A stretch of 36,151 nucleotides of DNA from positions 1 to 36,151 of the forward strand of contig CANJNJ010000044.1 of the NCBI GenBank assembly GCA_947474995.1. Direction: 5' to 3'. This stretch comes from Opitutaceae bacterium (GTDB taxonomy: Bacteria > Verrucomicrobiota > Verrucomicrobiia > Opitutales > Opitutaceae). Position 1 is the first letter of the stretch. Every line of letters begins with the position of its first letter. The position numbers and the translations under genes were made by a program. The notes under the pieces are model-generated. The model saw only the letters and a list, made by a program, of their open reading frames with translations. It made no database searches and had not been told where the DNA came from. Below, one piece after another: positions 3,526-32,173 of this stretch.

Positions 3526-4002
3526 CACATGCCATAGGAAGTTACGACCGATTGAAACCCGGGGCATCCCGAGACTTTGGGCCAAGGACACAGTGAAAGC
3601 CGATGCTTAAAAATGTCCGCGGACCACACAGGGCCAATCCTTCGACTGGAGGGACCAGATGGACAGGATGCGCGAGTGTGCCGGCTGAGCCGTGACCGAA
3701 TCTGCCGCATCCTGTGAATCATGTTCATCCTGTCGTCCGCTATTCGACGGCGAGGCCTAACTTGGCGCTATTTCAAGCAGACCCTGTCCGGGCCGCCCCA
3801 ACCCTGACCGACCGGGTTAATGCTTCGGGTCGAACACAGACTCATCTCCCTTCTGCGCCGTGGCGTCGTGAGCGAAGCGGGCGCGAACATGGGTTTGGTC
3901 CACCGCAAATTAACTCGCGCGACGGCGCAGCGGAACGGAGAAAACACCTACGGCTCACGGTAAAAAAGCGGCGTCGGGTCGCCGCAGTCCATACTGCCGG
4001 CG
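3526..4002. other. Intergenic region without a supported gene
   Basis: About 480 bases between two minus-strand genes. It contains one copy of the ACAGGAT dispersed repeat (3661-3734). Short open frames here have arginine- and proline-rich, low-complexity translations with no recognisable domain, and I do not accept them. The region should hold the promoter of the phosphodiesterase gene, but I see no convincing -35/-10 pair. Confidence 0.5.
3661..3734. repeat. Dispersed ACAGGAT/ATCCTGT repeat, copy 1
   Basis: Starts with GGACAGGATGCG, then about 35 variable bases, then ATCCTGTGAATC followed by CATCCTGTC. The same order of elements, on the opposite strand, occurs at 5955-6031. The outer ends are inverted (GACAGGATG against CATCCTGTC), so the unit could fold into a stem-loop. 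Confidence 0.6.
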
Positions 4003-10001: not shown

Positions 10002-11083
10002 GCCCAGGCCGTTCTCAGGAAGCGCACAAAATTACCGGAGAAAATTCCGTCGATGTCCTCCGCCTGGCAGCCGCGGGCCGCGAGCAGGTCGCCCAATTTG
10101 GCCAGATCCGCGATGCTGTCGACGTCGAGGGGCGTCTGCTCGGTACCATAACCGCCGTCGAGGTCCGTGCCGATCCCGACGTGGCGGGAGTTGCCCGCGA
10201 GCTGGCAGATGTGATCGATGTGCTCGCAGATCTTTTCCAACTTCAGGTTAAAGTCCTGCGGCTTGGAACGTAGGTGCGCCCAGCCGTGCACCATCATGAT
10301 CGCATCCATCGACATGCCGATGACCGCGTCGCGCCGGATCAGCTCCTTGATCTGATTGTCATCAAATTGCCGATTCCAATTGGCCAGGGCGCGGCAGTTG
10401 GAATGACTGGCCCAGACTCGGCCCTGGACACGGCCCATCGCATCCCAGAAGCTCTCGTCGCAAAGATGGGTCGCATCGAGGATGATGCCGAGGCGCTCCA
10501 TCTCTTTTAGCAATTCGTGGCCGCGGGACGTCAGCGGCCCCTCGTCATCGGTACCGTGGCCGTAAACGCCCGGGCCGTAGTGCACGGGGCCGATGGCGCG
10601 CAGACCGTCGGCGTACGATTTTTCGAGATGCTTGAAGCTGACGATGGAATCCGCGCCTTCGAGACTGAGGATATAGCCGATCGGCGGTTTCGCCCTATTC
10701 TCCGTCGAGTCGGTGAGCCAGAGTTTCAAGTGCGCATCGAGCTGCGCCCGATTCCGAATCTGCACCATTTCGCCGCAGGCTTCCATTTCGCGATACCAGG
10801 CCAGCTGGCCCTGTGTCTCCGCCCAGGCCTGCTCCGGACTCGCAAAACCGGGCAGGCGTCCAAAATACGGCACGTAGCGCGCGAGTTGGGTCGCCACACA
10901 CAAGCCGACGCGGCCGCGGCGCATTTCCGGAAAGCAGACGGTGTTGCGCGAACGGCCCGGAAAGTCCGTCATGCCCAGTTCGCGGCGGCGAATGCGCTCC
11001 TGGGTCCAGCGCTGGTCGCGGTTGAACTCGATGGCGTTCCAAGAAAGATCCAAATGAACGTCGAAGATAAGTTTGGGGCTCAT
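9998..11083 (-). CDS. Membrane dipeptidase family protein (peptidase M19)
   Basis: 361 residues from the ATG at 11083; the longer frame to 11242 runs into repeat-like sequence and is not needed by the family. Binuclear zinc ligands of M19 enzymes are in place: F-D-V-H-L-D (His10, Asp12), L-E-G-A-D (bridging Glu142), D-A-T-H-L-C-D (His206), S-H-S-N-C-R (His227) and G-I-G-T-D-L-D-G-G (Asp307). No signal peptide, so probably cytoplasmic, unlike the eukaryotic renal enzyme. Such enzymes hydrolyse dipeptides or related amides, often with a D-residue at the C-terminal side. Coupled by a 4-bp overlap to the MFS transporter, which suggests the transporter brings in its substrate or a shared degradation product (inference). 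A 520-bp gap with repeats separates it from the next upstream gene. Confidence 0.88.
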   Translation of the reverse strand: MSPKLIFDVHLDLSWNAIEFNRDQRWTQERIRRRELGMTDFPGRSRNTVCFPEMRRGRVGLCVATQLARYVPYFGRLPGFASPEQAWAETQGQLAWYREMEACGEMVQIRNRAQLDAHLKLWLTDSTENRAKPPIGYILSLEGADSIVSFKHLEKSYADGLRAIGPVHYGPGVYGHGTDDEGPLTSRGHELLKEMERLGIILDATHLCDESFWDAMGRVQGRVWASHSNCRALANWNRQFDDNQIKELIRRDAVIGMSMDAIMMVHGWAHLRSKPQDFNLKLEKICEHIDHICQLAGNSRHVGIGTDLDGGYGTEQTPLDVDSIADLAKLGDLLAARGCQAEDIDGIFSGNFVRFLRTAWA

Positions 11084-11329
11084 GAAAGTCGGAGGGCGGG
11101 CGACGAAGCCAGGCAAGGGCAGGCTGGCCCGGCAATCAGCAAAGCGAAACGAAAACAGGCCCGCATCTTTCCGCAATCGCTCGTTCGGCCCCTCCGTGCG
11201 CCGACGCCACACCTCTGGTCCAGGCCACCAAATACCCGGCAAGGGGCGAATCGCCTAACCCGGTCGCCCCGGCTCTGGTAGGCAAACTCGCGGCCGCCTT
11301 CAGGAGAAACCTCCCACAGCCGGAACGTT

Positions 11330-11462
11330 GCAGCCCCCACCGCAAAACGCGCTTTGCCCCGGACGGGAAGAAATAGATCCGTTTGTAGTCCCGCCTTTAG
11401 GCGGAATCTGACCAATTTAAGTTTTCCGCCTAAAGGCGGGACTACAAACCAGGCGCTCTTTC
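11330..11462. repeat. GTTTGTAG palindromic element, copy 1
   Basis: Arms 11381-11406 and 11424-11449 are perfectly complementary over 26 bases, with a 17-base loop. On the left the element continues with GCAGCCCCCACC at 11330 and ACGGGAAGAAA before the arm; on the right with AGGCGC and CTTTC. The same arrangement with identical spacing (51 bases from GCAGCCCCC to the arm) occurs at 15763-15895. Arms of the same sequence recur at 32060-32140. Confidence 0.85.
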
Positions 11463-11525
11463 TTGAGAGTGGAAGGTGGAGCCCAAACAATCCCCAAAGG
11501 GCTGACGTAAGAGCGTACGGTCCAA

Positions 11526-11604: not shown

Positions 11605-12408
11605 CTAAGCGCCCCCGCCCACGACCCAGAGCGAGTTCTGCGCGTTCACGCGGCGGACTTTGCTGAAATGATGGACGGAAACACCGTGTCCCTCGAGGCG
11701 GGTCGGTTGGCTGACCAGAAACTCCGCCCAGTCGCCACCGAGATGCGCCACGTAGGCGAGATGGAAATGCTCGACCAGATTCGGGCCCGTCGGCTCGCCA
11801 AAAAACAACACCGGGCCGGTGTCCACCTGGTAATAGCGATGACGTTCGCTGTAATTCACCGTCTTGATCGGGTACTCCACGGTCACCGCGCCACCGTCGA
11901 TGGCAAAGGTGGTGCGGGAAACCACTTCACGATCACCCTGCAGCACTTCGAGGATCGTCTCCATCGACTCCAGCCGTCGCGCCAGGCGCCGGCGAATCAC
12001 CAACCCATGGGTCTCGAAAGCGGCCGCCGGATCGACGCATTGGCGCTCGGGCTGCGGGCCAAGGGAAGCCGGATGGAGCATCACCCCTTTGTCCGCTCGG
12101 TCCCAGCGCTTGATGATCAGAAACTGGTTCGCGCCACTCACGGCGCACATGTCGGCATTCGGCGCCATCCAGACGTCACGCTCGACAAAAACATTCTCCG
12201 TCTTGCAGGAGGCGCCCAGGCCAAATTCAAAGCGCTCCCCGCCGCGCGCGACGGTGGCCAGGCACTCCAGCGGCATTCGCACATTGTTCAGGGTCGTCGC
12301 TGCCGGCCGCGACATGGTGAGCGGCTTCATCTTCGTGGTGTCGCTCCGCCAGCGAATCGCCGAGCGGGCGAAGTCACAGACGGCTGAATTGGACTCAGAA
12401 TCGGGCAT
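11605..12408 (-). CDS. Conserved-looking cytoplasmic protein of unknown function, coupled to propeller paralogue A
   Basis: 267 residues, no signal peptide, no membrane segment. I do not recognise a family. It contains strand-rich segments (NQFLIIKRWDRA; GAVTVEYPIKTVNYSERHRYYQVDTGPVLFF; HFHLAYVAHLGGDWAEFLV) suggestive of a beta-sandwich, with clustered histidines and aromatic residues (E-H-F-H-L, S-V-H-H-F). The start at 12408 is supported by one of the few good ribosome binding sites in the window (GGGAGG, six bases upstream). That site falls in the nine-base gap after the stop codon of paralogue A, so the two are surely cotranscribed. It could process or bind a product of the propeller proteins; this is only inferred from position. 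Confidence 0.75.
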   Translation of the reverse strand: MPDSESNSAVCDFARSAIRWRSDTTKMKPLTMSRPAATTLNNVRMPLECLATVARGGERFEFGLGASCKTENVFVERDVWMAPNADMCAVSGANQFLIIKRWDRADKGVMLHPASLGPQPERQCVDPAAAFETHGLVIRRRLARRLESMETILEVLQGDREVVSRTTFAIDGGAVTVEYPIKTVNYSERHRYYQVDTGPVLFFGEPTGPNLVEHFHLAYVAHLGGDWAEFLVSQPTRLEGHGVSVHHFSKVRRVNAQNSLWVVGGGA

Positions 12409-12417
12409 GATCCTCCC

Positions 12418-14046
12418 TCAATCCCTGAACTGAAACGCGTAGAGATCGGCGTCCTTCAATTCAAAGCGCAAGCGGACGGGCTGCTCGGCGATGGCACGAA
12501 CATCGCTCCCTTTCGTCCACGTCACCGGACGTCCGATGGCGTCGCCGAAAATCGCCGGGCAATCATCGAGGGCAAAACCCGGTAGCGGGCGGCCGTCCAG
12601 GTCCTGGATTTCGACGCGCACGCTGCCCGCGGCGGAAGTGGCGAAATTAATTTCCAAGTGCCGGCCGCGAAAGCTCAGCGGCTTGGTCATCACTTCGCCC
12701 CCACTGAGGGGCGCCTGGACCGAGACAAAGCCATCGAGCCGCAGGGTGTAGCGGCGCAGCAGGCTGCTGTGGCCGGTCCAATAACTCTCCGTCGCGTACA
12801 GCGAAAGTTCGTTCGGCGCGCCCTCGAGGGACGACTTCGTTTCCACGAGGTGCCAGGCCGCGTAGAGGTGCCCGTAATTCCAGGTGCCTTCGCGCTCCGG
12901 TCCCGGACGCATAAACGCCTCGTTCCAACGCTTGAACTTCACGCCGTCCCGACTGGCCATGACGAGCGTTTCGCTCAACGCGGTGCCATAGCGCTCGCTG
13001 GCCTTGGCGCGCATTTCCCGGTGCTCCAGTTCCGGCAGGGCGCGCATGGAGGGAGACCAGCGTTTGGCCTGCTCCGCACTCACCGAGGTCCGGGCGTCGT
13101 CGGCCGCCGCGTGACCGAGTTCCGGCTCGATGTAGCGCACGGGAAAACCGATCAGCAAATGCGGGGCCCGATGGTACGGTTTGACCTGGTTGGTGTAGAG
13201 ATGCTCCGGGGGCGAATCCACATAGGTCAGATCCGCCTGATTTTCCCAATGAATGAAATCCTTCGAAGTCGCGGTCCGGATGGCCCGCACCCCGACGTAG
13301 GGCGAGTCCGCGGTGCCTTTGGAAAAATACCGCCAGTAGGCCCGATACTCGCCGCGCGCCCCGTCCCAAAACGCGAGGTTCTGCGAATCGAACGCGCCAT
13401 CGGTGATGACCGGGGCGTTGCCCATGGGCGACCAATGGATGCCGTCCGGTGACTTGAAGGCCATCAGACCACGCGGATTCTTGGTCGTGTTGAAGGCCTT
13501 GTAACGGGCATCGGCGGGCGCGTTCGGGTTCTCGTCCTTGAACACCGCCGGACTGCTCGTATCAAACGTCACCCCATTGGCCGTGCCGCCGACCATGACA
13601 ATGTTGTTGGCCTTCGAGCCATTAAACTCATGCAGCCCCAGTTCCGGCCGGCGCCAGTGCACCCCATCGTCGCTCTCCGCGTAGCACACGAACGTCGGGT
13701 GACTGTCCGTGTTCACCTTCTCGGGGGTGACGGAAATCTGCCACGCCCGATAGTACATCCGGTAGCGGCCACCGTCCTGAAAGATGTTGTGGTACGCCGT
13801 GGCGCTGCCTTCCCAGGCCGCATCATGAACCATGACCACCTCCCGGGGGACAGGCTGCTGCAAACGCAGCTGGGCTTTGCCCTTGAGTTCCTGCACGAGG
13901 AACCCGTCGACAAAGAGTTCGCGCCGGGAACCGATGTCGAGCACGCCGGCGGCGGGCGGAGTCGCGCCCTGAACGGCCGCGGAAAAAAGCGAGAGCACGC
14001 CGGCTGCAAGCGGCCGGAGGAAAGAGGCAGGTTTGGAAGATCGCAT
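12418..14046 (-). CDS. Secreted glycoside-hydrolase-like beta-propeller protein, paralogue A
   Basis: 542 residues with an N-terminal signal peptide (MRSSKPASFLRPLAAGVLSLFSAAVQGA). The mature protein opens with the array's signature D-I-G-S-R-R-E-L-F-V-D (37-47). Four 'S-x-D-x-x-x-W/F' blade motifs follow at 125-131 (SDDGVHW), 199-205 (SPDGIHW), 261-267 (SKDFIHW) and 365-371 (SRDGVKF). This pattern is typical of five-bladed propellers of glycoside hydrolase clans GH-F/GH-J and of BNR repeats. F-D-S-Q-N-L-A-F-W-D (219-228) and Y-R-M-Y-Y-R (95-100) are conserved in the array. Residues ~438-542 form a separate beta-sandwich (GGEVMTKPLSFRG...VRVEIQD...LKDADLYAFQF). Predicted role: binding or cleaving a polysaccharide in the periplasm or at the cell surface. 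Catalytic residues cannot be assigned by eye. Last of five tandem copies. Confidence 0.85.
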   Translation of the reverse strand: MRSSKPASFLRPLAAGVLSLFSAAVQGATPPAAGVLDIGSRRELFVDGFLVQELKGKAQLRLQQPVPREVVMVHDAAWEGSATAYHNIFQDGGRYRMYYRAWQISVTPEKVNTDSHPTFVCYAESDDGVHWRRPELGLHEFNGSKANNIVMVGGTANGVTFDTSSPAVFKDENPNAPADARYKAFNTTKNPRGLMAFKSPDGIHWSPMGNAPVITDGAFDSQNLAFWDGARGEYRAYWRYFSKGTADSPYVGVRAIRTATSKDFIHWENQADLTYVDSPPEHLYTNQVKPYHRAPHLLIGFPVRYIEPELGHAAADDARTSVSAEQAKRWSPSMRALPELEHREMRAKASERYGTALSETLVMASRDGVKFKRWNEAFMRPGPEREGTWNYGHLYAAWHLVETKSSLEGAPNELSLYATESYWTGHSSLLRRYTLRLDGFVSVQAPLSGGEVMTKPLSFRGRHLEINFATSAAGSVRVEIQDLDGRPLPGFALDDCPAIFGDAIGRPVTWTKGSDVRAIAEQPVRLRFELKDADLYAFQFRD

Positions 14047-14117
14047 CTGGAAGTTTTGGTGAGGGTTTAATCGGTCGCTCCCGGCGAAATGCCTGGCCCG
14101 ATTACTTGGCGCAAAAA

Positions 14118-15773
14118 CTAATCCTTAAATTGGAACGCGTAGAGGTCGGCGTCCTTGAGCACGAAGCGCAGCCGAACGACCTTGCCGGCGAGCGCACGCA
14201 CGTCGGTCCCTTTTTTCCAGGTTACCGGACGTTCGACGGTGTCGCCGAAAGTCTGCTCGCAATCATCAAGGGTGAAACCGGGCAGCGGCTGTCCGTCTTC
14301 CGACTGGATCTCCACCTGCACGGCGCCCACCGCCGAGGTCGCAAAATTCAGGGTCAGCCGGTTGCCGCGGAAGCGGAATGGCTTCGTGAGCAGTTCGCCA
14401 CCCGTGCGCGGCGCCTGCGCGGAGACAAAGCCATCCAACCGCAGCGTGTAGCGACGCAGTTCATTGCTGTTCCCCGTCCACATGCTCTCGATGCCATAGA
14501 ACGACAGCTCGTTCGGCGCGCCGGCGTCGGCGGATTTCGTCTCCACCATGTACCAGGCCATGAAGTTCTGCCCATAGTTCCACGTGCCATCACGCTCGAT
14601 CCCCGGCGGGATAAAGGCGTCGTTCCAGCGCTTGAAGTTCACGCCATCGCGGCTCGCCATCAGCGCACCCTCGGTGATCGCGGCACCATAGCGTTCGCTC
14701 GCGCCCGATCGCAGTTCACGCTCCTTCAGCTCGGGCAGCGCGCGCAGGGACGCGGACCAGAGGCGCGTCTTCTCCGGCCCCGCCGGCGCCCGGGCATCGT
14801 CGAGGACCCCGTCTTTGAGCTCCCGTTCCACGTAGCGCGTCGGGATGCCGATGAGGATGTGGGGGGCCCGGGGATAGGGTTTGACCTGATTGGTGTAGAG
14901 ATGCTCGCGGGGCGAATCCTCGAATTTGAGATCCGCCTGGTTTTCCCAATGGATGAAATCCTTCGAAGTCGCCGTGCGGATGGACCGGACCCCGGTGTAG
15001 GGCGACTCGACCGTGCCTTTGGAAAAGAACCGCCAATAGGCGCGATACTCGCCGCGCACTCCATCCCAAAACCCGAGATTCTGCGAATCGAACGCCCCAT
15101 CGGAGATGACCGCATCGTGGCTCAGCAGCGACCAATGAAGGCCATCCGCCGACTTCAGCACCACCAGGCCCTTCTTCGGATTGCGGGAGTGGGTCACCGC
15201 CTTGTAGCGCGCGTCCGCCGGCGCCGCCGGATTCTCATCCTTAAACACCGCCGCCGCACCCGTATCAACGTCCACGCCCTCCATCGGCCCACCGAGCAGG
15301 ACGATGTTGTTGTCCTTCGACCCGTTGAATTCGTTCAAGCCGAGCGAAGGGCGGCGCCAGTGAATGCCGTCGTCACTTTCCGCATAGCACAACGGCACCG
15401 CCTTCAGGTAGCCGGAGTGCTTATTCGGGTCGGTCTCCTTCACCGGATCCACCTGCACCCCTTTGTAGTACATGCGGTAGATATTCCCATCCTTGAAAAT
15501 GTTATGGTAGCCACTACCGCTGCCTTCCCAGGGCGCGTCACAGACAAACACCACTTCGCGCGGCGTGGGATGGTGCAGCCGCAGTTCCGCCTTGCCGGTC
15601 AGCCGCTCGATCATGAAATCGTCGACGAAGAGCTCGCGGCGGGAGCCGATGTCGGGGACGGCAGCGGACGTTCGCGCCGGTGGTTGCGCTGACGCGGGAG
15701 CGAGGCCCGCGAGCGCCGCCGCCAGCAAAAAAAGCCCGTGGAGGCGTCTAAGCCGCAGCGATGCAGCCCCCAC
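14118..15773 (-). CDS. Secreted glycoside-hydrolase-like beta-propeller protein, paralogue B
   Basis: Same architecture as its neighbours: P-D-I-G-S-R-R-E-L-F-V-D, blade motifs SDDGIHW, SADGLHW, SKDFIHW and SRDGVNF, F-D-S-Q-N-L-G-F-W-D, and the C-terminal beta-sandwich ending LKDADLYAFQFKD. I place the start at a GTG at 15773, which gives 551 residues with a classic signal peptide (n-region LRLRRLHG, core LFLLAAALAGLA, cleavage near SAQ). The only in-frame ATG is at 15911; starting there would put 46 residues encoded mostly by the GTTTGTAG repeat (FVVPPLGG..., LQTDLFLPVR) before the signal peptide and would probably block export. No ribosome binding site marks either start. The repeat has thus replaced, or sits directly on, the native 5' end of this gene; expression may be altered. 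Confidence 0.8.
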   Translation of the reverse strand: MGAASLRLRRLHGLFLLAAALAGLAPASAQPPARTSAAVPDIGSRRELFVDDFMIERLTGKAELRLHHPTPREVVFVCDAPWEGSGSGYHNIFKDGNIYRMYYKGVQVDPVKETDPNKHSGYLKAVPLCYAESDDGIHWRRPSLGLNEFNGSKDNNIVLLGGPMEGVDVDTGAAAVFKDENPAAPADARYKAVTHSRNPKKGLVVLKSADGLHWSLLSHDAVISDGAFDSQNLGFWDGVRGEYRAYWRFFSKGTVESPYTGVRSIRTATSKDFIHWENQADLKFEDSPREHLYTNQVKPYPRAPHILIGIPTRYVERELKDGVLDDARAPAGPEKTRLWSASLRALPELKERELRSGASERYGAAITEGALMASRDGVNFKRWNDAFIPPGIERDGTWNYGQNFMAWYMVETKSADAGAPNELSFYGIESMWTGNSNELRRYTLRLDGFVSAQAPRTGGELLTKPFRFRGNRLTLNFATSAVGAVQVEIQSEDGQPLPGFTLDDCEQTFGDTVERPVTWKKGTDVRALAGKVVRLRFVLKDADLYAFQFKD

Positions 15774-15895
15774 CCAAAAACGCGTCTGGCGCCGAACGGG
15801 AAGAAACAGATCCGTTTGTAGTTCCGCCTGTAGGCGAAAGGCTTGAACGGATCGGATACCGCCTAAAGGCGGAACTACAAACGAGGCGCACTTTC
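15763..15895. repeat. GTTTGTAG palindromic element, copy 2
   Basis: Arms 15814-15839 and 15857-15882 are complementary at 23 of 26 positions. The flanks match copy 1 (GCAGCCCCCACC at 15763, ACGGGAAGAAA before the arm, AGGCGC and CTTTC after it). The element overlaps the 5' end of paralogue B and fills the space to paralogue C. Confidence 0.85.
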
Positions 15896-15966
15896 CGATG
15901 AGGGATTTCATTTTTTTTGGGAGGACAAGGGATCAGCAACGGGTCGCGTTCCGAACGCGGTGAAGG

Positions 15967-17544
15967 CTAAGGCTGGAATTGAAACGCGTAGACGTCGGCG
16001 TCCTTGAGGACAAAACGCAGTCGAATCGCTTGGCCGGCGACCGCGCTCACATCGGTCCCTTGCTTCCAGGTCACGGGGCGCTCAATCGTGTCGCCGAAAA
16101 TCGGCGGACAGTCGTCCAGGGTGAAACCGGGAAACGGCTGGCCGTTCGCATCCTGGATTTCGACGCGCACGCTGCCGGCGGCGGAGGTGGCAAAATTGAG
16201 GGCCAGTTGCCGGCCGCTAAATCGGAGTGGCTTGCTGATCAGTTCGCCTCCGCTCATCGGCGCCTGGGCCGAGACAAAGCCGTCGAGCCGCAACGTGTAC
16301 CGTCGAAGCGCGCTGCTGTGACCGCCATTCGCGTGCCCGCTCCAGTAACCTTCGCTGGCGTAGAGCGAGAGTTCGTTCGGCTCGCCGGCGATGACCGCCT
16401 TGGTCTCGACCACCTGCCAGCCGCTGTAAAGGTGACCGTAATTCCAGGTGCCGGGCCGCTCGGGTCCTGGGCGCACGAAAGCCTCATTCCAGCGTTTGAA
16501 CATCACGCCATCGCGGCTCGCCATGAACAGCGTCTCGGTCAAAGCGGTACCGTAACGCTCGCTCGACCTGGCGCGGTTCTCCCGATTCTCGAGTTCGGGC
16601 AGCGCCCGCATCGAGTCCGACCAGCCGCGTTCGACATAACGAACGGGAAATCCGATGAGCACCTGCGGCGCCCGAAAATACGGCGCGATGTAATTTTCGT
16701 ACAACTCCTCCGGTGGCGAATCCACATACTTGAGGTCGGCCCGATTTTCCCAATGGAGAAAATCCTTCGACGTCGCGGTGCGAATCGCGCGTCCTCCGTC
16801 CGATTTTTCGAAATAGCGCCAATAGGCGCGATACTCACCGCGCACCGCGTCCCAGAACGCACAGACCTGCGAGTCGAACGCGTTCCGGTGCGGGTCGGTG
16901 ATCGCCGGGTTCGGGCTCATCGGCGACCAGACGAGGCCATCCGGTGACTTGAGCGGCAACATGCCGTTACCGTATTTGATGTAGTGGACGAAGGTCTTGT
17001 AACGCGCGTCCGCCGCCGTGGCCGGATTGTCGTCCCGGAATACGGCCGGCGCTCCGTTCTCGTTTTTCACACCGCCGATCTCACCCCGAACGAAGAGGAT
17101 GTTGTTTTGCTTTGAGCCTTTGAACTCATGCAGACCCAAATTGGGTCGCCGCCAGTGAATGCCATCGTCGCTCTCGGCGTAACACGCGATCTGTGGATTG
17201 TCCCCTGGCTCCACGCCCGAGGGCGTGACGGAGAGGTTCCAGGCCCGATAATACATGCGATACCGATTGCCGTCTTTAAAGACCGCGTTGTAGGCCGTCG
17301 CGTTTCCCTCCCACGGGGCGTCAAAGACCATCACGATCTCCTGCGGCTCCGGATGATGCAGCCTCAGCTCCGCGCGACCCGCGAGCTGCGCGACGAGAAA
17401 ATTGTCCACGAACAATTCACGGCGCGATCCGACGTCGATCACCGCACTCGCCGGCCCGGGAGGTTGCTCCGCTGAGAGCTGAACGAAACCGAAGAGACCA
17501 ACCGCGACGGACCAGACGGGAGCGAGCCTTTTGGATGAGCACAT
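15967..17544 (-). CDS. Secreted glycoside-hydrolase-like beta-propeller protein, paralogue C
   Basis: 525 residues with a signal peptide (MCSSKRLAPVWSVAVGLFGFVQLSAE; the Cys at position 2 is not in a lipobox). D-V-G-S-R-R-E-L-F-V-D opens the mature part. Blade motifs are SDDGIHW, SPDGLVW, SKDFLHW and SRDGVMF, followed by the shared C-terminal sandwich (GGELISKPLRFSG...LKDADVYAFQFQP). Compared with A, B and D it lacks about 20 residues between R-Y-V-E-R and S-M-R-A-L-P-E, a loop that in the others contains D-D-A/S-R. It also has an insertion (GHANGGHSSALRR) near the C-terminal sandwich and a different T-D-P-H-R-N-A-F-D-S-Q segment. Such loop changes near the propeller face suggest a different substrate preference. 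It follows paralogue D on the same strand with a 50-bp gap. Confidence 0.85.
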   Translation of the reverse strand: MCSSKRLAPVWSVAVGLFGFVQLSAEQPPGPASAVIDVGSRRELFVDNFLVAQLAGRAELRLHHPEPQEIVMVFDAPWEGNATAYNAVFKDGNRYRMYYRAWNLSVTPSGVEPGDNPQIACYAESDDGIHWRRPNLGLHEFKGSKQNNILFVRGEIGGVKNENGAPAVFRDDNPATAADARYKTFVHYIKYGNGMLPLKSPDGLVWSPMSPNPAITDPHRNAFDSQVCAFWDAVRGEYRAYWRYFEKSDGGRAIRTATSKDFLHWENRADLKYVDSPPEELYENYIAPYFRAPQVLIGFPVRYVERGWSDSMRALPELENRENRARSSERYGTALTETLFMASRDGVMFKRWNEAFVRPGPERPGTWNYGHLYSGWQVVETKAVIAGEPNELSLYASEGYWSGHANGGHSSALRRYTLRLDGFVSAQAPMSGGELISKPLRFSGRQLALNFATSAAGSVRVEIQDANGQPFPGFTLDDCPPIFGDTIERPVTWKQGTDVSAVAGQAIRLRFVLKDADVYAFQFQP

Positions 17545-17594
17545 TTTGACGAGTGGGCCGCGAATTTAAAAATTCGGGGTCCGACCGGACCGTC

Positions 17595-19208
17595 TCATTT
17601 GAATTGGAACGCAAACAGGTCGGCGTCGTTGAGCACGAAACGCAGCCGCACGGCTAGGCCGGCCAGGGCGCTCACGTCCCGGCCCTTCGCCCAGGTCACT
17701 CCGCGTTCGATCGCGTCACCAAAAATCGCCGGACAATCCTCCAGCGCGAACCCCGGCAGCGGCCGGCCATTCGCATCCTGAATTTCAACGCGCACGCTGC
17801 CCGCGGCGGACGTGGAAAAATTGAGGGCCAGGCTCTGGCCGCGAAAACGGAGCGGTTTGGTAATCAGTTCCCCACCGCTCATCGGCGCCTGCGCCGACAC
17901 AAACCCGTCCAAGCGGAGCGTGTAGCGGCGCAGCGTGCTGCTGTGGTCGGTCCAGTAGCTTTCCACCGCATAGAGCGAAAGCTCGTTGGGTGCGCCCTCG
18001 AGGTCCGACTTCGTTTCCACCAGATGCCAGCCAACATACTGGTTCCCGTAGTTCCAAGTGCCCACGCGTTCGATGCCGGGCGGAAGAAAAGCCTCCTGCC
18101 AGCGCTGGAAGCTCACTCCGTCTCGACTGGCCATCAGCAGGGTCTCGGTCAGTGCCGTTCCGTACCGTTCGCTCGCGGAGGCCCGCATCTCGCGATGCTC
18201 CAGCTCGGGCAGGGCCCGCATCGACGCTGACCACTCCTTCATTTTTTCCGCGCTGGCCGGACCGCGGGAGTCGTCCATCGCCCCATTCAGTTCCCGTTCC
18301 ACGTAACGCACGGGAAAGCCGATCAGCAGGTGAGGCGCTCGATGATAGGGTTTGACCTGGTTGGTGTAGAGGTGGGTTCGCGGCGCGTCGGGATATTGGA
18401 GGTCGGCATAATTATCCCAGTGCAGGAAATCCTTGGACGTGGCCGTGCGGATCCCGCGTACCCCGATGTAAGGATCGGCCGACGTCCCCCGGTCGAAGTA
18501 ACGCCAGTAGGCGCGGTAAAAACCGCGTTCCGCATCCCAAAACGCCAGGTTTTCTGAATCGAACGCCCCGTCGGTGATCACCGGCGCATCACTCATCGGC
18601 GACCAGTGGAGGCCATCGGGGGATTTGAACGGGAGCAGGCCGCGTGGGCTCCGGGAGCGGAACATGGCTTTATACCGGGCCTCGGGAGCCGCGCCGGGAT
18701 TGTCATCCTTAAAGACCGCGGGGTGCCCCGCATCGACATCAACTTTTCCGATGACCCCGCTCACCATCACAATATTATTAGCCTTCGAGCCATTGAACTC
18801 GTAGAGCCCAAGCTCGGGCTTGCGCCAGTGAATGCCGTCATCGCTTTCCGCGTAGGCGCAAAAGAGCGGGTGAACCTCCTGATTTTTCTTGGATTCGGCC
18901 TCATGCAGCGGGCTGATTTCATACGCCTTATAGTACATCCGGTATTTGTCCCCGTCCTGGAAGACACTGTGATACCCGGTACCGCTGCCCTCCCAAAGGG
19001 CATCGTGCACCAGGCTGATCTCCCGCGGTACCGGACGATGCAGACGCAGCTCGGCCTTCCCCTTGAGTTGGTCCACGAGTGCGTTGTCCACGAACAGTTC
19101 GCGGCGGGACCCGATATCGACGGCCGTGACCGGCGAATTCGCCGCCTCGGCCAGCGCCAGCAGAAAGGGGGCGGCGGCAGTGTAAGAGATAATGCTTCGG
19201 AGGTTCAT
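17595..19208 (-). CDS. Secreted glycoside-hydrolase-like beta-propeller protein, paralogue D
   Basis: 537 residues from the ATG at 19208 (MNLRSIISYTAAAPFLLALAEAA, a signal peptide). The frame stays open upstream to 20060, but that extension lies over paralogue E in another frame and is an artefact. V-D-I-G-S-R-R-E-L-F-V-D follows the signal. Blade motifs are SDDGIHW, SPDGLHW, SKDFLHW and SRDGVSF; conserved features include F-D-S-E-N-L-A-F-W-D (Glu instead of Gln), Y-R-M-Y-Y-K and a C-terminal sandwich ending LNDADLFAFQFK. It keeps the D-D-S-R loop that paralogue C lacks. It starts 23 bp after the stop of paralogue E, so both are on one transcript. Confidence 0.87.
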   Translation of the reverse strand: MNLRSIISYTAAAPFLLALAEAANSPVTAVDIGSRRELFVDNALVDQLKGKAELRLHRPVPREISLVHDALWEGSGTGYHSVFQDGDKYRMYYKAYEISPLHEAESKKNQEVHPLFCAYAESDDGIHWRKPELGLYEFNGSKANNIVMVSGVIGKVDVDAGHPAVFKDDNPGAAPEARYKAMFRSRSPRGLLPFKSPDGLHWSPMSDAPVITDGAFDSENLAFWDAERGFYRAYWRYFDRGTSADPYIGVRGIRTATSKDFLHWDNYADLQYPDAPRTHLYTNQVKPYHRAPHLLIGFPVRYVERELNGAMDDSRGPASAEKMKEWSASMRALPELEHREMRASASERYGTALTETLLMASRDGVSFQRWQEAFLPPGIERVGTWNYGNQYVGWHLVETKSDLEGAPNELSLYAVESYWTDHSSTLRRYTLRLDGFVSAQAPMSGGELITKPLRFRGQSLALNFSTSAAGSVRVEIQDANGRPLPGFALEDCPAIFGDAIERGVTWAKGRDVSALAGLAVRLRFVLNDADLFAFQFK

Positions 19209-19231
19209 ATTTTCGCGTCGATTGAGCTGCC

Positions 19232-20773
19232 CTACGGCTGAAACTGATATGAATACAGATCTGCGTCCTTCATCACGAAGCGAAGGCGGACGGGGGTGCC
19301 GTCCCAACGCTTCAAGTCCGGGTTGGAATCCCAGGTGATTGTCTGGCGAACCGAATCGCCAAACAGCTCCAGTGAATCCTTGAGTGCGAAACCAGGCAGC
19401 GGCTTGCCGTTCACGTCCTGCAGTTCCACGCGCAGGTAGCCGGCGGCAGACGTGGCGTAGTTCACGACCAGCGTGCGGCCGGAAAACGTGATCGGCTTGG
19501 TCACGAGTTCGCCCCCCTCGTACGGCGCGTTGGCCGAGACGATGCCGTCGAGTCGCAGCACGCCGCGACGCACGTGGATCGAAGGCAGGCGAAAGTGCTG
19601 CAGATAGTAGACCGACATCTCGTCTTTGCCGGTGGGAACAAGGCCGAGGGCGACGGTGTTGTTGCGATCGGTCCAGTTGAGGGGATCCGGACCGGGAGGA
19701 ACAAACGCGCCCAGGAAGCGCCGGCTCCAGTTGGTTCCATCGCGGCTGCTGATGAAAACCGAGTCGGTCATGCCCTTGCCCCGCAGCGGATCGTAGACCT
19801 CGGGCAACTTGGCGTTGCGCGAAAGGAGAAAACGCATCGGAAATCCGAGATAGATGTGCGGCGCGCGGAAGTAGGGTGTGATGGCGTTCGTGTAGAATTG
19901 GTTGATCGGCTGGTTGCCATAGTTGATCCATTCGGGATCGCTCCACTTCAAGAAGTCCGGGGAAACCGAACGCCGGATCGCACGAGTCGGCTCGCCATTG
20001 CCCGGCCGCGGATAGGAATCGCGCAGGTAGGCGACGTACTGCTTCTGTAGCGTGTCCCAAAAAACGACGTTCTGGCTGTCGAATAAATTATTCGGCTTCG
20101 GCCGCGTCTCCTGCGGAATGACTGGCGCCTCCCCTTTTTGCGTCCAATGAATCCCGTCCGCCGAAACCAGCGCGTAGAGTCCCGCGCCAATGCCGCCGGT
20201 CGCCTTGTAGCGCTCCGCCGGCAACGCGGCGGGGTTGGCGTCAATGAAGGGGGTGAAATTCGCGGCGGGCAGCGTCCACGGCGACCGCTTCTGCCGCTGC
20301 ACGTCGTCCGGTCCCGGCTTGTCGCCGGTCCCGAGGATGAGGTTGTTGGCCTTGCTGCCCTTGTATTCGACGATCCCGAGATTCGGTTTCGTGAAGTGGA
20401 TGCCGTCGCGACTTTCGGCGTAGCCGACATAGAGCGCCCACCCTTCCCCCGAAGCCGGCACCTTGCCGGGCACGGAGCGATAATACATCCGATAAAGATC
20501 CCCGTCTTTCAGGACCGTGATGTAATGGTTGCCATTGCCCTCCCACGGCGCATCGAACGTAATCGCGGTCTCCGCCGGAGTCGGGCGATGGAGCTGCAAC
20601 GTCACACCCGACATGCTCTCCACGAGCGTGGTGTCCTCAAATAGTTCCAGGCGCGAGCCGATGGGCGTGGCGGAAGGGCCCTGGGCCCAAGCCGGGCCAT
20701 CTGCCGCGCAGAAGAGGATCAGGATGACGCAGGCGGCGGAAGCGCGCCGCAGGAACGGATGCATTCTATTCAT
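19232..20773 (-). CDS. Secreted glycoside-hydrolase-like beta-propeller protein, paralogue E (divergent)
   Basis: 513 residues from the ATG at 20773 (MNRMHPFLRRASAACVILILFCAADGPAWAQ, a signal peptide; an ATG at 20764 is equally possible). It is the first propeller gene in transcription order and the most divergent. The opening motif is I-G-S-R-L-E-L-F-E-D instead of D-I-G-S-R-R-E-L-F-V-D. The blade motifs are SRDGIHF, SADGIHW, SPDFLKW and SRDGTNW. The F-D-S-Q-N-V-V-F-W-D motif and the C-terminal sandwich (GGELVTKPITFSG...MKDADLYSYQFQP) are kept. It lacks the A-L-P-E-L-E-H-R-E-M-R segment of A, B and D and has its own P-E-V-Y-D-P-L-R-G-K loop. This is probably the older or functionally distinct member from which, or beside which, the others were duplicated. 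Confidence 0.85.
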   Translation of the reverse strand: MNRMHPFLRRASAACVILILFCAADGPAWAQGPSATPIGSRLELFEDTTLVESMSGVTLQLHRPTPAETAITFDAPWEGNGNHYITVLKDGDLYRMYYRSVPGKVPASGEGWALYVGYAESRDGIHFTKPNLGIVEYKGSKANNLILGTGDKPGPDDVQRQKRSPWTLPAANFTPFIDANPAALPAERYKATGGIGAGLYALVSADGIHWTQKGEAPVIPQETRPKPNNLFDSQNVVFWDTLQKQYVAYLRDSYPRPGNGEPTRAIRRSVSPDFLKWSDPEWINYGNQPINQFYTNAITPYFRAPHIYLGFPMRFLLSRNAKLPEVYDPLRGKGMTDSVFISSRDGTNWSRRFLGAFVPPGPDPLNWTDRNNTVALGLVPTGKDEMSVYYLQHFRLPSIHVRRGVLRLDGIVSANAPYEGGELVTKPITFSGRTLVVNYATSAAGYLRVELQDVNGKPLPGFALKDSLELFGDSVRQTITWDSNPDLKRWDGTPVRLRFVMKDADLYSYQFQP

Positions 20774-20965: not shown

Positions 20966-21697
20966 CTAGAGTCCATGCTCGGAGTGGATCCGTGCCGATT
21001 CCTCCACCCTCATCTTTCTTACGCTGTGATCGATGATATACTGGATGTGAAATTCCATGGCGGCCTTGGCCGCCGCCACATCCTTCGCTGCGATCGCGTC
21101 GAAAATATCGGTGTGTTCTTTTAGCGTCCGGACATCCCGCTTTTCCAGCCCGCTTCGGTCGTTCATCCCAACGACCTGAATGGTAGCGGCTCCGCCGGCG
21201 ACCACGCGATCGATCAGGTGGAGACGCAAAATCTCGCTCTTCAAGAGTGTATTCTTGGCCGCCACCATGATGGCCACATGAAAACGGATGTCCTCCCTTG
21301 CCATGGACGTCTGGTATTCCTCGCGATCTGCCTGCCGCTTGAGGGTGGCCAGCAGATTATTCATGGCCTCGAGCGAATGCCGGATATCAGCGAGTTCGGC
21401 CTCAGACCTATGCGCAGCGGCGAGTCCCGCCGCATACGTCTCCAACGCCTGCCGCACGCCGCAGTGCTCCTTGAAGTCGAGCAGCGACATGAACTTCACC
21501 GTCGCTCCCAGGCGGGGGCGGATTACGACCAAGCCTTCGGTTTCGAGCTGCCGCAAGGCGTCCCGCACCGGAGTCCGGCTCACTCCGCTTTTCTCGGCCA
21601 GCGGCTTGGTTCCCAGCTGTACGCCCGGCGCATATTCGCCCGAGAGTATTTTCTGCCGGATAAATCGATAGGCTCGGCCGGTGTTTTCGCTGCTCAT
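20966..21697 (-). CDS. GntR-family transcriptional regulator with FCD ligand-binding domain (FadR subfamily)
   Basis: 243 residues. Residues 5-70 form the winged helix-turn-helix (G-V-S-R-T-P-V-R-D-A-L-R-Q-L-E-T-E-G-L-V, the recognition region typical of GntR proteins). Residues ~75-225 are an FCD-type helical domain. Its metal-site residues can be placed: Asp136 and His140 (REDIRFH), His195 (LKEHTDIF) and His217 (EFHIQY). FCD regulators usually bind small carboxylates or sugar acids, which fits the aldolase and ACS transporter nearby. The gene begins 25 bp after the DapA-family gene and is followed by paralogue E, so it probably controls this locus. A palindrome upstream of the TonB gene is a candidate operator. 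Confidence 0.92.
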   Translation of the reverse strand: MSSENTGRAYRFIRQKILSGEYAPGVQLGTKPLAEKSGVSRTPVRDALRQLETEGLVVIRPRLGATVKFMSLLDFKEHCGVRQALETYAAGLAAAHRSEAELADIRHSLEAMNNLLATLKRQADREEYQTSMAREDIRFHVAIMVAAKNTLLKSEILRLHLIDRVVAGGAATIQVVGMNDRSGLEKRDVRTLKEHTDIFDAIAAKDVAAAKAAMEFHIQYIIDHSVRKMRVEESARIHSEHGL

Positions 21698-21722: not shown

Positions 21723-22688
21723 TCAATGGCCACGGCCCGCCCCAGGGTTGGCGGACAACAAATCGGCGTCCGTGGGCCGGCCCCGGTTGAATTTATCGAC
21801 ATAGCGCCGCTGGCAAATCTGGAACTGCTCCTCAGTGAAACCTTGATAAGGCGAAAGCAGGCGCAGCGGCATGTCCTCCAAGCCGCCAAGCTTCACAATC
21901 ATCTTGTCGTAGGCTCCGTCGATCCGATCCATCGCCAGCAGGTCGCCGAACACTCCCTGCAGCAAATCATGGAAAAAATGTTGCAGGCGAAACAGCCGCT
22001 CCACCTGGCGCAAGCGACCGGCCTCGAACAGTGCCTTGGTCGCTTCCGGCGCGATCGGCGCAAACGACGAGAGGATCGAGCACTCGCCATACATGCAGCC
22101 GTGGGGAAAATTCTGTTCGCCGAAGAAATGCTGCAACTCGGGCGCCTGGGTCATCAGGTCCGCGGCGCGCGGGAGGCCGCCACCGGTGTTCTTGGTCGCG
22201 ACCAGATTGGGCACGGCCTCCACGATCCGGCGGTAGTCGGCGCCCGTCAGCACCCGCTTCGCCCGCGGCAGGTTGTAATGCAGAAACGAGGCATCCGGAA
22301 AGGTGCCACACACATCCTTGAAGAAGGTCAGCAGTTCCCCGTCGTTGAGCGCACCCCAACTCGGCAGCGCGATTTGAAAGGTGCGGAATCCGCGGAGATA
22401 CGCGATGGCCACGCGCTCGACAATCGTGGCCGTCGAAAGGGCGATGGCCCCCACCATGGTCTGCACCCCGGCGGGCCGGGTTTCGTCCCAGAAAACGTCC
22501 GTCACCTGCTTAAATTGATCGAGGTTGACCGCGTACCCCTCCCCGGCCGTGCCAAAGATGTAGAGATGATCAAACCCCGCCTGCCGCGCGCGCTGCACCT
22601 CGCGACGAAAGACTGTTTCCTGGAAACGCTCTTTCGCGTCCCAGGGCACCTCACAAGAAACAAGTACCGCTTGAGGAAAACGTGGCAT
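21723..22688 (-). CDS. DapA-family class I aldolase/lyase (dihydrodipicolinate synthase superfamily)
   Basis: 321 residues from the ATG at 22688; a longer frame to 22820 adds arginine-rich residues not seen in the family. Family signatures are present: G-T-A-G-E-G (46-51, matching the usual GTTGEG), the catalytic tyrosine in H-Y-N-L-P (Tyr138), and the Schiff-base lysine in V-A-T-K-N-T-G-G (Lys166). Members make or cleave 2-keto-3-deoxy sugar acids, N-acetylneuraminate or dihydrodipicolinate. The biosynthetic enzyme is less likely, because the gene sits in a catabolic-looking locus next to a GntR regulator. Proposed role (inference): retro-aldol cleavage of a keto-deoxy sugar acid made from the locus substrate, in the cytoplasm. 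Confidence 0.85.
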   Translation of the reverse strand: MPRFPQAVLVSCEVPWDAKERFQETVFRREVQRARQAGFDHLYIFGTAGEGYAVNLDQFKQVTDVFWDETRPAGVQTMVGAIALSTATIVERVAIAYLRGFRTFQIALPSWGALNDGELLTFFKDVCGTFPDASFLHYNLPRAKRVLTGADYRRIVEAVPNLVATKNTGGGLPRAADLMTQAPELQHFFGEQNFPHGCMYGECSILSSFAPIAPEATKALFEAGRLRQVERLFRLQHFFHDLLQGVFGDLLAMDRIDGAYDKMIVKLGGLEDMPLRLLSPYQGFTEEQFQICQRRYVDKFNRGRPTDADLLSANPGAGRGH

Positions 22689-22927
22689 GGAAAATTGCGC
22701 GCCCGCCGGGATTGAATGAAGCGGCGGCAACCGGTGGGACCAGAAACCGGCGCAGCGGATGAGGGCAGTTAAATGGGGAGACGCGGATCGACTGACGAAT
22801 CGGACGGGGCTCCGCCCCACCAGAAGCCAAGGCGGAATCGGACTGGCCGGTTAAGCCGTCGGCCCGCGTTGGGATTAAAAGATAAGGCCATCCGGCCCCG
22901 CCGAAATCGGCTCAGAATTACCCAAAG

Positions 22928-22975: not shown

Positions 22976-25151
22976 TCAAAACCGGTACTCGGCGCTCAAT
23001 TTCCAAGTGAAACCAGGGTTGGTATAAAGCCACGTCGCGTTCTCGCCGCCCTCGATGTAGTCCTTGTCGAAGACGTTGTCCAAATTCAGCGCGATGCGGT
23101 ACGCCTTGGCCTCATAGGAGAGCATGGCCGTCGAGGTCGTGTACGCCGGTGCGATGAATTGCTTCAGCTGGCCCGCAACGCTGGCAAACGGCACGGCCCC
23201 TTTGTGAAACATCCCGAAGCCCACCTTGAACCGCTTGAGCGGGCCCGCGTTGATGGTCTGGGAGGCATAGGCGCTCCAGGTGTCGTTGGTGACCCCGTTG
23301 GGCAGAGCACCCGAGAAGTCCTTCTGGTCGCCCTTGTACAAGGTGAAGATCGCCTGAAGCGAGCCGAGCGGAGTTTCGAAGGAGGTGCCGATGTCGGCCT
23401 CATAGCCCTTGTTGGTCTCGGTGCCGAACTGGCCGATGCCGCCCGTGCCGTCAGGGAGCGGGAAAAGTACGCGCACCTTGGTGAGCGCGAGGTCGTAAGC
23501 CGCGACGCTGCCGAAGAGATGGCCGTCCGGCGTTTCAATTTTCACGCCAACTTCCTTGTTCTGGCCCACCGACGGCTCGAGGGGCTGGCCGTCGCGTGCC
23601 CCGCCGACGAATGTGCCAGTGTTGAACACGAACGACTCGGAGTAATTGTAGTAGATGCTGGCGGCCCGGATGGGCTTGTACACCACGCCCCAGCGCTTGA
23701 CCATTTGCTTGGCGTCCAGCGTCGAGACGACGCGGCTCACCCGGTTCGTGGCCGTGTTGTGAAAATTATTGTACCGCAGGCCGCCGACCACGATGAGCTG
23801 GTCCTTGAAGGCCGAGAACTGCTCCTGCAGGTAGCCCGAATGCTGATCGGCGACCGTTTCCACGCCTGAGGGCGCGGGATTGCCCGGGATGGGCACCAGC
23901 CGCGAGAACTTCGGGAACGGCAGGTCGTAGACCGGATTGTTGATGTTGATGGGGCTGTAGAAAACGCTGTCGGCGATCTGGAAGTTGTGCTGCGTGGTAA
24001 CAATGCCGCCAAAGCTGACCTTGTGAGCGACGCTGCCCGTCGAGAAGGATTTCACGAGGTCGAGCAGGACATTGCCCAATTTGTCGCCCTGGTAGACGTT
24101 TTGGTAGGTCCGGTTCATCACGCCGGTGGTGGCATTCGTCAGGCCGTTCGCGTTCAGCCGGTTCCAGTCCGTATCCATCGTGTTGAAGTTCAGCACGAGG
24201 CTCGAATAAAACCCCGAAGCGATTTCGGTTTTCAGGCTGCCCGAGATGTACTGGCCGTAGTTCGGGCCGTCGCTCCAGGTTTCAAAAAAGGAAAAGTCCT
24301 TCGGCACTTTGATCAGCTGGCCGGTCGTATCGACCTCGATTCTGGGAGAGGAGGTTGTCCTTGTGGTAAAACTTGTAATCCAGCGAAAAGAGGGTCTTCG
24401 GCGTGATCTGCTTGTCGAGCGCCACGCTGAAGAAGCGGTCCTTGAAGTATTCGAACTTTCGCGCGCCGTCCGAATCCGTCGCGGCGACCGTGGCGCGGTA
24501 ATTCACCCCGTCGACGCCGGTCGGGCCGGTGGAATTGGCCTCCACCCGGCGAAAGTCGAAACTGCCCACGGTCGCGCGCACCATGTTCGTTCTTTTTTCC
24601 GAGGGCCGCTTGGTGACGAAGTTCATCAGTCCGCCGGTGGCCGAGGCCTGGCCGAACAGGAGCGCGGCCGGTCCCTTGACCATTTCCATCCGATCGATGT
24701 CGTACATCGGGACGTTGTAGTTGGAGCCGAAGCCGACGTTATCCATCAGGAAGCCGCGCACGCGGAAGCCGCGGGAAAACATGTCGCCGAGCAGGCTGGT
24801 GCGCTTGACCACGCCGCTGGAGCCGTACTTCAGCGTCTCGATGGGATTGTCCTTCGCGAGGTCCTGAATCAGCTCTTCGTTGATGATTTGGATGTTCTGC
24901 GGGATGTTGATCAGGCGCTCCGAGCTGCGCGTGCCCGCCATGGTGTTCTTCCTAAAATAGCCGGAGTCGTCCTGGCCGGAAACCTGGAACGGCGACAGGG
25001 TCACCATCTCTTCCTGCTTGGATTTTTCATCGGTTTTCTGACCGGGCGTTGGGGCCGACTGGGCCAAAGCGGAAACAGCGGCGAACACGAGGAACGCGGA
25101 CGCGGGAAGCAAATACCGTCTCAAGACACGGGGATCGATTTTAGTATTCAT
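22976..25151 (-). pseudogene. TonB-dependent outer-membrane receptor interrupted by a single-base frameshift
   Basis: Starts at the ATG at 25151 with a signal peptide (LLPASAFLVFAAVSALAQ) and the Opitutaceae-type leader E-E-M-V-T-L-S-P-F-Q-V-S-G. The plug domain (residues ~60-190) has SSERLINIPQNIQIINEEL, M-E-M-V-K-G-P-A-A-L-L-F-G and G-G-L-M-N-F-V-T-K-R-P, as in siderophore-type receptors. The frame ends at 24282. The barrel continues in another frame (D-T-T-G-Q-L-I-K-V-P-K-D-F-S-F-F) to the C-terminal strand ending in A-E-Y-R-F at 22976. Removing one base from the GGG run at 24344-24346 (CCC on the coding strand) restores one ~724-residue protein. Either the gene is newly inactivated or the base is a sequencing error; everything else looks intact. 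Function when whole: TonB/ExbBD-driven uptake of a large ligand. No SusD-type partner is nearby. Confidence 0.85.
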
Positions 25152-25404
25152 GGGTGAAGCGACGACTGCAGTTTGCCAGGGGGCCGAACATGTATACACA
25201 GCTATACCGCTGCGTGTCATGTCAACCTCGTTCCGCCCAAGAGACTGGGGCCGTCGGATTTTATAATGAGACGCTTCGGGCGCCACCCCACCACCCCGCC
25301 GTGGGCCCGCAGCGCATAAGACCCGGGCCCTCTCCGGGCTTCAGGGCTTCTGCCTCACGATCGGCCGCGCGGCCCGGCCGTTTTTCCGCGCGGGGCGGAA
25401 ACGC
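25152..25404. other. Upstream region of the TonB receptor gene
   Basis: About 250 bases between the TonB start and the dnaJ stop. It holds the candidate operator (25191-25208) and a TTGACA hexamer on the minus strand at 25225-25220, followed by TATAGC after only 13 bases. That spacing is too short for a standard promoter, so I do not claim the start site. No gene is visible. Confidence 0.45.
25191..25208. promoter_or_regulatory. Candidate GntR operator (GTATA-N6-TATAC)
   Basis: Perfect inverted repeat GTATA/TATAC with a six-base spacer at 25192-25207, containing TGTATACA. It lies about 40 bp upstream of the TonB start codon and just downstream of a TTGACA hexamer on that strand. FCD-type GntR regulators bind short AT-rich palindromes of this sort with a central T/A core, and one is encoded in the same locus. 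I did not notice a second copy elsewhere in the window. Confidence 0.4.
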
Positions 25405-32018: not shown

Positions 32019-32059
32019 GGGGCGCGGTCCGGCGCTTTGTACGATAGTGCCGGGACCTC

Positions 32060-32140: not shown

Positions 32141-32173
32141 CCGGAGCAACCGCCGACCCAAAACGGGCGAGCG

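Follow-up and report, generated by a model that had tools for sequence, protein, structure and literature searches.

We analysed the whole contig C44 (CANJNJ010000044.1; 36,151 nucleotides, hereafter the window) from a 5.24 Mb genome bin, 96% complete, of an Opitutaceae bacterium. It contains five consecutive minus-strand paralogous genes at 12418-20773, designated P1-P5. We suggest that their products are exported glycoside hydrolases (GH), with D220 as the acid candidate and with paralogues that differ in specificity; we consider this the probable explanation. By Pfam, NCBIfam and PDB searches P1-P5 form a family that is unclassified but falls within a fold superfamily already known; we do not see a new kind of system here. 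All five genes, read earlier from the DNA letters as a tandem array, are confirmed as full-length open reading frames (ORFs):

12418-14046, minus strand: P1, 542 amino acids (aa); five-bladed propeller (model residues ~62-443) and C-terminal jelly-roll (~436-542), from the ORF and the AlphaFold model
14118-15911, minus strand: P2, ORF of 597 aa that opens with 48 codons of a REP-like (repetitive extragenic palindromic) repeat; the probable start is at about GTG 15773
15967-17544, minus strand: P3, paralogue of 525 aa; FDSQV in place of FDSQN, N86 and Q296 where P1, P2 and P4 have His
17595-19208, minus strand: P4, paralogue of 537 aa; ATG at 19208
19232-20773, minus strand: P5, 513 aa, the most divergent paralogue; I86, D391, Q420

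The gaps P1-P2, P2-P3, P3-P4 and P4-P5 are 71, 55, 50 and 23 bp. Identity to P1 is 64% for P2, 66% for P3, 71% for P4 and 42% for P5, far above chance. The shared layout described in the original prediction is found nearly unchanged: the GSR[R/L]ELF motif, the four S-x-D-x-x-x-[W/F] motifs (125-131, 199-205, 261-267 and 365-371 in P1) and the C-terminal DAD[L/V][Y/F]x[F/Y]QF strand are present in all five proteins, and, judged by hydropathy alone, so is a hydrophobic N-terminal stretch ahead of the conserved part. The FDS[Q/E]N motif holds in four of them and fails in P3 (FDSQN, FDSQN, FDSQV, FDSEN and FDSQN from P1 to P5).

Codons 1-48 of the P2 ORF (15768-15911) coincide with one copy of a palindromic repeat found throughout the genome, hence the true start of P2 is placed downstream of it, probably near GTG 15773, which as an example start gives 551 aa. 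The same REP-like repeat occurs in the window at 11335-11466 and 32056-32157 besides the copy that makes the false N-terminus of P2, and it has 111 translated matches, on both strands, across the window's genome. A transposase-looking ORF resembling RAYT (REP-associated tyrosine transposase), named from its first residues alone, lies at L173:4230-5150 (G000:C21).

Predicted fold and C-terminal module

The assignment of the five proteins to a glycoside-hydrolase-like five-bladed propeller is supported by the predicted structure of P1 and its comparison with known structures. The AlphaFold model, computed from P1 together with its four paralogues and 76 related sequences, has a mean pLDDT (predicted local distance difference test) of 91.3 and a pTM (predicted template modelling score) of 0.89. 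Foldseek matches it with probability 1.00 to entries of GH43, GH32 and GH130, the GH43 entry 3c7g being at rank 1, and also to fructofuranosidases and levanases. With VIA-align the best row is the 1,2-beta-oligomannan phosphorylase 9gph_B (Z 23.6, root-mean-square deviation (rmsd) 2.8, 272 aligned, residues 62-442), followed by 7fip (Z 23.3), the N-acetylgalactosamine (GalNAc) deacetylase 6n1a (Z 23.1, rmsd 3.5, 302 aligned), BT_0996 (5mt2, Z 23.0), the GH43 xylosidase 8hcj (Z 22.1), GH159 (Z 20.9), GH117 (Z 20.6) and GH62 (Z 20.5). We take 9gph and 7fip to be GH130 enzymes and BT_0996 to be a member of GH137. P1 is thus predicted with high confidence to have the five-bladed propeller fold of the GH32/43/62/117/130/159 superfamily (Z 20 to 23.6). 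Because VIA rows within one Z unit are tied, the nearest propeller family is not settled by the structural scores; the fold itself is settled within the limits of a confident prediction.

The C-terminal 107 residues of P1, folded alone, give a pLDDT of 94.8. This model has no Foldseek match at E 0.001. Its best structural match is the carbohydrate-binding module (CBM) of family CBM36 in 1w0n (Z 7.5, rmsd 2.9, 90 aligned), and the next rows include CBM6 and CBM35; no CBM occurs among the PDB sequence matches. The C-terminus of P1 is likely a CBM-like jelly-roll, where a Z under 8 may reflect a common arrangement.

An unclassified family spread over several phyla

The earlier statement that no characterised member is recognisable is borne out in Pfam, NCBIfam and PDB sequence searches. 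No Pfam family passes its cut-off in P1-P5. A scan of genome contigs gave at least 562 relatives among 587 candidate stretches, with seed matches above 97% identity left out, and 80 loci were kept. Automatic picking found a family ORF in 77 of these 80; the 81-member set used below consists of P1-P5 and 76 of the loci (L065, L067, L081 and L083 are excluded, their ORFs being short, broken or oddly long), and 73 of its rows form the set A4.

At E 0.01, Pfam lists a single glycosidase model for the 81 members, GH32N (PF00251), in one of them (E=0.0029); it reaches 12.6 bits in P1, under the cut-off of 22.1, and is absent from P2-P5 at E 1. PF04041 (GH130) and PF04616 (GH43) match 0 of the 81 members at E 0.01, and PF04041 none of P1-P5 at E 1. 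The NCBIfam model of beta-1,2-mannobiose phosphorylase matches 8 of the 81 locally at E <=0.001 (P1 scores 23 bits, the cut-off being 450), and that of alpha-arabinofuranosidase has a sub-threshold local match in one. The PDB sequence search gave a weak local match to 7fip (E=9e-5 and 1.1e-4) over ~60 residues, blade I only. PHROGs contain no match at E 0.01 for P1, P5 or the ORF 11605-12408, and the plasmid search returned one distant match (26.8% identity), annotated as hypothetical. Since the sequence tests of all three fail, P1-P5 are filed under none of GH130, GH43 and GH32.

The family shares with GH130 the five-bladed propeller, as predicted for P1, the W-E pattern of blade I and an Asp early in blade III. 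Unlike GH130, it has no DPR motif at D220 (the xDPR motif of the invariant catalytic Asp, seen in GH130 ORFs, is absent there in all of P1-P5), and its proteins are probably exported and carry an extra C-terminal module. The order of propeller and likely CBM-like jelly-roll is that of a GH43 enzyme with C-terminal CBM35, Pc1,3Gal43A, as described in the available part of its report (PMC7939473), and a GH43 entry is the first Foldseek match; however, the GH43 base Asp and acid Glu seem, by eye, to be replaced by Y85 and R293. GH32 (clan J) and the wider 'furanosidase superfamily' have the same fold, in line with the fructofuranosidase and levanase matches, but differ in the sequence scores given above.

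In the accessible text of PMC5342196, Lac161_ORF10 (AGW45555) is a five-bladed beta-galactosidase from a soil cosmid assigned to Verrucomicrobia. By this description alone it resembles P1-P5 in verrucomicrobial origin, in the predicted propeller and in a possible operon with an enolase-superfamily gene; unlike them, it was grouped with PF04041. Another protein of that cosmid, AGW45552 (Lac161_ORF7), is named in the available portion of PMC5352709 as a homologue of eighteen planctomycete propeller proteins. It is described in the same text of PMC5342196 as a membrane-bound-dehydrogenase/HEAT/cytochrome c protein, and by this make-up it is ruled out as a member of the P1-P5 family.

The N-terminal propeller of BT_1020 (PF24067) was considered as a relative as well. 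One distant member, L010:8797-10593, scores weakly on this model (E=5.7e-4, under cut-off), whereas none of P1-P5 matches it at E 1; the link was dropped, as it consists of this one weak match and a PDB search with the same member gave no glycosidase. The window's genome has two PF24067 genes over the cut-off, on contigs C179 and C30. Another distant member, L069:3036-5159, carries a Laminin_G_3 domain at residues 512-622 of 708.

The titles of the relatives' records name Verrucomicrobia, Planctomycetota, Bacteroidetes, Lentisphaerae, Kiritimatiellae, Hydrogenedentota and Aminicenantes. Across Verrucomicrobiota a match at E 1e-30 is present in 42 of 288 genomes (with up to 5 candidates scored per genome), and among near relatives 25 of 57 match at E 1e-10, the window's genome counted in. 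Up to 35 family matches occur in one genome, gene pieces counted. The window's genome itself has 26 at E 1e-5, several of which are fragments of a single gene, and no match to PF04041 or PF04616 at E 0.001. The view of the array as a confined system is not supported: the family spans several phyla and has further members on other contigs of the same genome. The P1-P5 family is not named in the literature searched, mostly openly readable papers, and an earlier description is possible, for example among Naumoff's FURAN families; the accessible text of a study of fucose and rhamnose use by Verrucomicrobiota (PMC8857213) holds nothing on it.

Conserved residues and candidate active site

Invariant in the 81 members are, among others, W78, E79, D91, R96, D171, K183, D220, R239, R254, R257, Y284, Y291, R366, R373, W389, E413, R431, R432, R436 and D438; E420 is kept in 80 of the 81, and H296 is the only His present in at least 95%. 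Placed at strand ends in the model, D91 and D171 look structural. All five window proteins retain D75, E79, Y85, D220, R254, R257, Y284, R293, E413 and D438. Loss in all five of the acidic residues expected at the funnel, which would speak against an enzymatic role, is not seen in the sequences: D75, E79, D220, E413 and D438, candidates for such residues, are kept in 5 of 5. From P1 to P5 the proteins differ at positions 86 (H, H, N, H, I), 222 (Q, Q, Q, E, Q), 223 (N, N, V, N, N), 296 (H, H, Q, H, H), 391 (Y, Y, Y, Y, D) and 420 (E, E, E, E, Q). These substitutions would fit different specificities.

The distant set comprises 24 members, one gene being counted twice (in L010 and L164). In these, residue 79 is Glu in 18 and Asp in 4, R254 is kept in 23, and the D220 column has Asp in 15, with Asp one column on in 6 more (manual count).

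The GH43 funnel is built of an Asp base, an Asp modulator and a Glu acid. In our by-eye register we take Y85 to stand at the place of the GH43 base and of the GH130 Asn, and R293 at that of the GH43 acid Glu; the pairing of Y85 with the GH130 Asn is seen in local alignments, and the rest of the register is drawn by eye from the motifs of the two families. Profile mapping of the catalytic residues onto GH43 failed, the GH43 set being one sequence (1 of 7 loci). According to the available part of its report, the GH130 hydrolase BT3780 has Asp142 as its sole candidate acid and two glutamates as base candidates (PMC4599007). In Pc1,3Gal43A, by the same text as above, the base Asp is missing with Gln263 in its place, and the enzyme is active (PMC7939473). 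By analogy, the two may serve as precedents for a non-canonical five-bladed enzyme, which is not a proof.

Ancestry of the five paralogues

On a tree of 113 rows, made with a quick method, the five proteins of the window require five label changes, the largest number possible. P1 pairs with a gene of locus L009 (support 98), P2 with the neighbour of that gene (100) and P4 with one of L011 (99). P3 is placed next to the P1 group (95), and the partner of P5 is a gene from contig C127 of the same genome (95); the latter placement is less sure, since both partners are on long branches. L009 retains the order P2, P1 and then the homologue of 11605-12408. In the four orthologue pairs tested, nonsynonymous divergence (dN) is 0.065-0.141 and synonymous divergence (dS) 0.88-1.0, with dN/dS of 0.07-0.15. 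Therefore, the array gathers long-separate lineages under selection. The five-copy local expansion proposed in the original prediction gives way to five separate old lineages, three of which (P1, P2 and P4) are closest to genes of other species. A recent tandem amplification that would raise the dose of a single enzyme, suggested by adjacent same-strand genes with short gaps and by adjacent same-strand family pairs in 11 of the 80 related loci, is contradicted by the tree and is at odds with the dS of 1.1 to 1.9 between window paralogues (six of ten pairs tested), so that we give it almost no credence.

Genomic neighbourhood

The genes around the array in the window are as follows:

8676-10001, minus strand: major facilitator superfamily (MFS) transporter, galactonate-type (PF07690; TIGR00893 under cut-off)
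9998-11242, minus strand: M19 membrane dipeptidase family protein (PF01244)
11605-12408, minus strand: conserved gene with no family match, 9 bp downstream of P1; in L009 its homologue adjoins the same paralogues
20966-21697, minus strand: GntR/FCD transcriptional regulator (PF00392, PF07729)
21723-22820, minus strand: DapA/NanA/KDG-aldolase-type lyase (KDG, 2-keto-3-deoxygluconate; PF00701 E=6e-14)
22976-25286, minus strand: TonB-dependent receptor in two frames (22976-24307 and 24282-25286), with a Plug domain; siderophore-receptor model under cut-off

The gene 11605-12408 has no Pfam or NCBIfam match at E 0.001; it is 88% identical to its homologue in L009 (dN 0.066, dS 0.38) and 72% to that in L168, and another homologue lies ~1 kb from a distant family gene in genome G002. 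Homologues of the GntR gene (46-50%) adjoin TonB and family genes in two other genomes (G004, G319) and on contig C85 of the window's genome. For the lyase the dapA, nanA and KDG-aldolase models of NCBIfam are all under cut-off. The M19 protein has no homologue in the 28 case loci. The frame of the TonB receptor breaks near 24340, whereas its homologue in L013 is continuous with 718 aa, which points to an assembly error or a pseudogene. Farther away, 333-2252 encodes an Ig-like, by eye secreted-looking protein, and a type I phosphodiesterase (PF01663) is on the opposite strand at 2305-3591.

Over the 80 loci the recurring neighbours are sulfatases (14), DUF1501-like (12), BNR (11), enolase-superfamily (10) and MFS (10) proteins, short-chain dehydrogenases/reductases (SDR, 7), Gfo/Idh (7), NANM-like (6), TonB (5) and HpaI aldolases (5). 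Ten representatives were scanned for this, and the sulfatase, DUF1501, MFS, SDR and HpaI groups were named from sequence starts. A control test compared case loci chosen by family match alone with arbitrary loci, all placed by hand. L198, among the 20 case loci, proved identical in DNA to the seed locus L070 and was left out, which leaves 19; the 38 controls are 39 loci without L244, which holds a family gene, and 24 of the 38 are from genomes that also gave case loci. Any gene of the sugar-acid dehydratase/aldolase class (enolase-superfamily, HpaI or DapA) occurs in 6 of 19 loci against 0 of 38 controls (p=0.0007), MFS in 5 of 19 against 0 (p=0.003), and BNR and HpaI each in 3 of 19 against 0 (p=0.033). 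With L198 included (20 loci) the counts against 0 of 38 are 5 for MFS (p=0.003), 4 for BNR (0.011), 3 for HpaI (0.037) and 6 for the combined class (0.001). AKR and DUF1501 are not significant in the 19 against 38 loci.

Links to sialic acid and to sulfatases were tried and rejected. Kelch NANM genes stand near family genes in several genomes, among the matches listed and compared by eye, and a set of 28 loci against the 38 controls gave NANM 7 vs 2, TonB 6 vs 1, Gfo/Idh 7 vs 0 and HpaI 7 vs 0; three of these loci (L167, L168, L170) had been fetched because NANM is present. In loci chosen by family match alone the NANM enrichment is gone (1/20 and 1/19 vs 2/38), and those of TonB and Gfo/Idh are not upheld in the less biased set. 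Sulfatases, found by eye in 14 of the 80 loci, are not above control. One neighbour, L017:5597-8107, fuses an N-acetylneuraminate-epimerase-like kelch domain to a sodium:solute symporter; proteins clustering with it occur in 6 of the 80 family loci, this one alone having been scanned.

Proposed mechanism and alternatives

We suggest the following scheme. P1-P5 would be exported, probably to the periplasm, with the propeller as the catalytic domain and the small CBM-like jelly-roll at the C-terminus. The TonB receptor would bring oligosaccharides in, and their glycosidic bonds would be hydrolysed by single displacement in the central funnel. The blade-III Asp D220 (of FDSQN) would serve as the acid, like the GH130 aspartate, and water would be activated by a group other than the canonical GH43 blade-I aspartate. 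Each of the five paralogues would take a different linkage or residue; that the five divide one glycan among them is plausible. The MFS carrier would then take up the product, and a keto-deoxy sugar acid derived from this product would be the substrate of the DapA-type lyase.

Several points weigh against this scheme. The profile-profile comparison with GH130 gave a local probability of 7.7 only, hence the equation of D220 with the GH130 acid is made by eye, and 3 of the 24 distant members have no Asp at this position. Seventeen gene families were tried in the control test with uncorrected p, and the combined class was formed after the single counts had been seen. Not significant in 19 vs 38 loci are sulfatase (5 vs 6), NANM kelch (1 vs 2), TonB (1 vs 1), GntR (1 vs 0), DapA alone (1 vs 0), enolase-superfamily alone (2 vs 0), Gfo/Idh (2 vs 0) and SDR (3 vs 4). 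The passage of the products through keto-deoxy sugar acids is suggestive only, because of the number of families tried, the loci placed by hand and the class combined afterwards.

The same three distant members, together with the apparent loss of the canonical GH43 positions (Y85 for the base Asp and R293 for the Glu, by eye), would suit non-catalytic glycan-binding or sensing propellers, that is pseudo-enzymes feeding the TonB receptor. We regard this as unlikely, though worth keeping in view: E79, D220 and E413 are invariant in the 81 members and in all five proteins, and the five-bladed GH43 enzyme that lacks the base Asp is still active by its available report (PMC7939473).

Less likely still, P1-P5 may represent a new GH family without a canonical base or acid, in which acidic 3-deoxy-ulosonic or uronic sugars are held by the invariant arginines, the paralogues, differing in their funnel residues, dismantle one glycan stepwise and the released sugar acid is split by nearby DapA-/HpaI-type aldolases.

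Metal-dependent deacetylases or esterases could use the same scaffold, as the F. plautii GalNAc deacetylase does, and 6n1a is structurally about as close to P1 as GH130 is. The metal ligands of that enzyme are His and Asp. No His pair is kept across P1-P5, P3 having N86 and Q296 and P5 having I86, and in the 81 members H296 is the sole widely conserved His, so that we find this alternative improbable. Glycoside phosphorylases, like many GH130 members, would agree with the top structural matches, which are phosphorylases, and with the several invariant Arg (R239, R254, R257, R366, R373, R431, R432 and R436); we consider them highly improbable, as the proteins look exported by hydropathy, where phosphorolysis would be of little use, and the Pfam GH130 model finds none of the 81 members.

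Last, we note what exported glycoside hydrolases of this kind would mean. The predicted fold of this large family, which spans several phyla, points to glycan breakdown, yet the curated libraries tried do not cover it. If its activity were named, a gap would close in the current picture of polysaccharide degradation by Verrucomicrobiota and Planctomycetota, and natural arrays of paralogues such as P1-P5 provide material at hand for learning how specificity is determined by the funnel.

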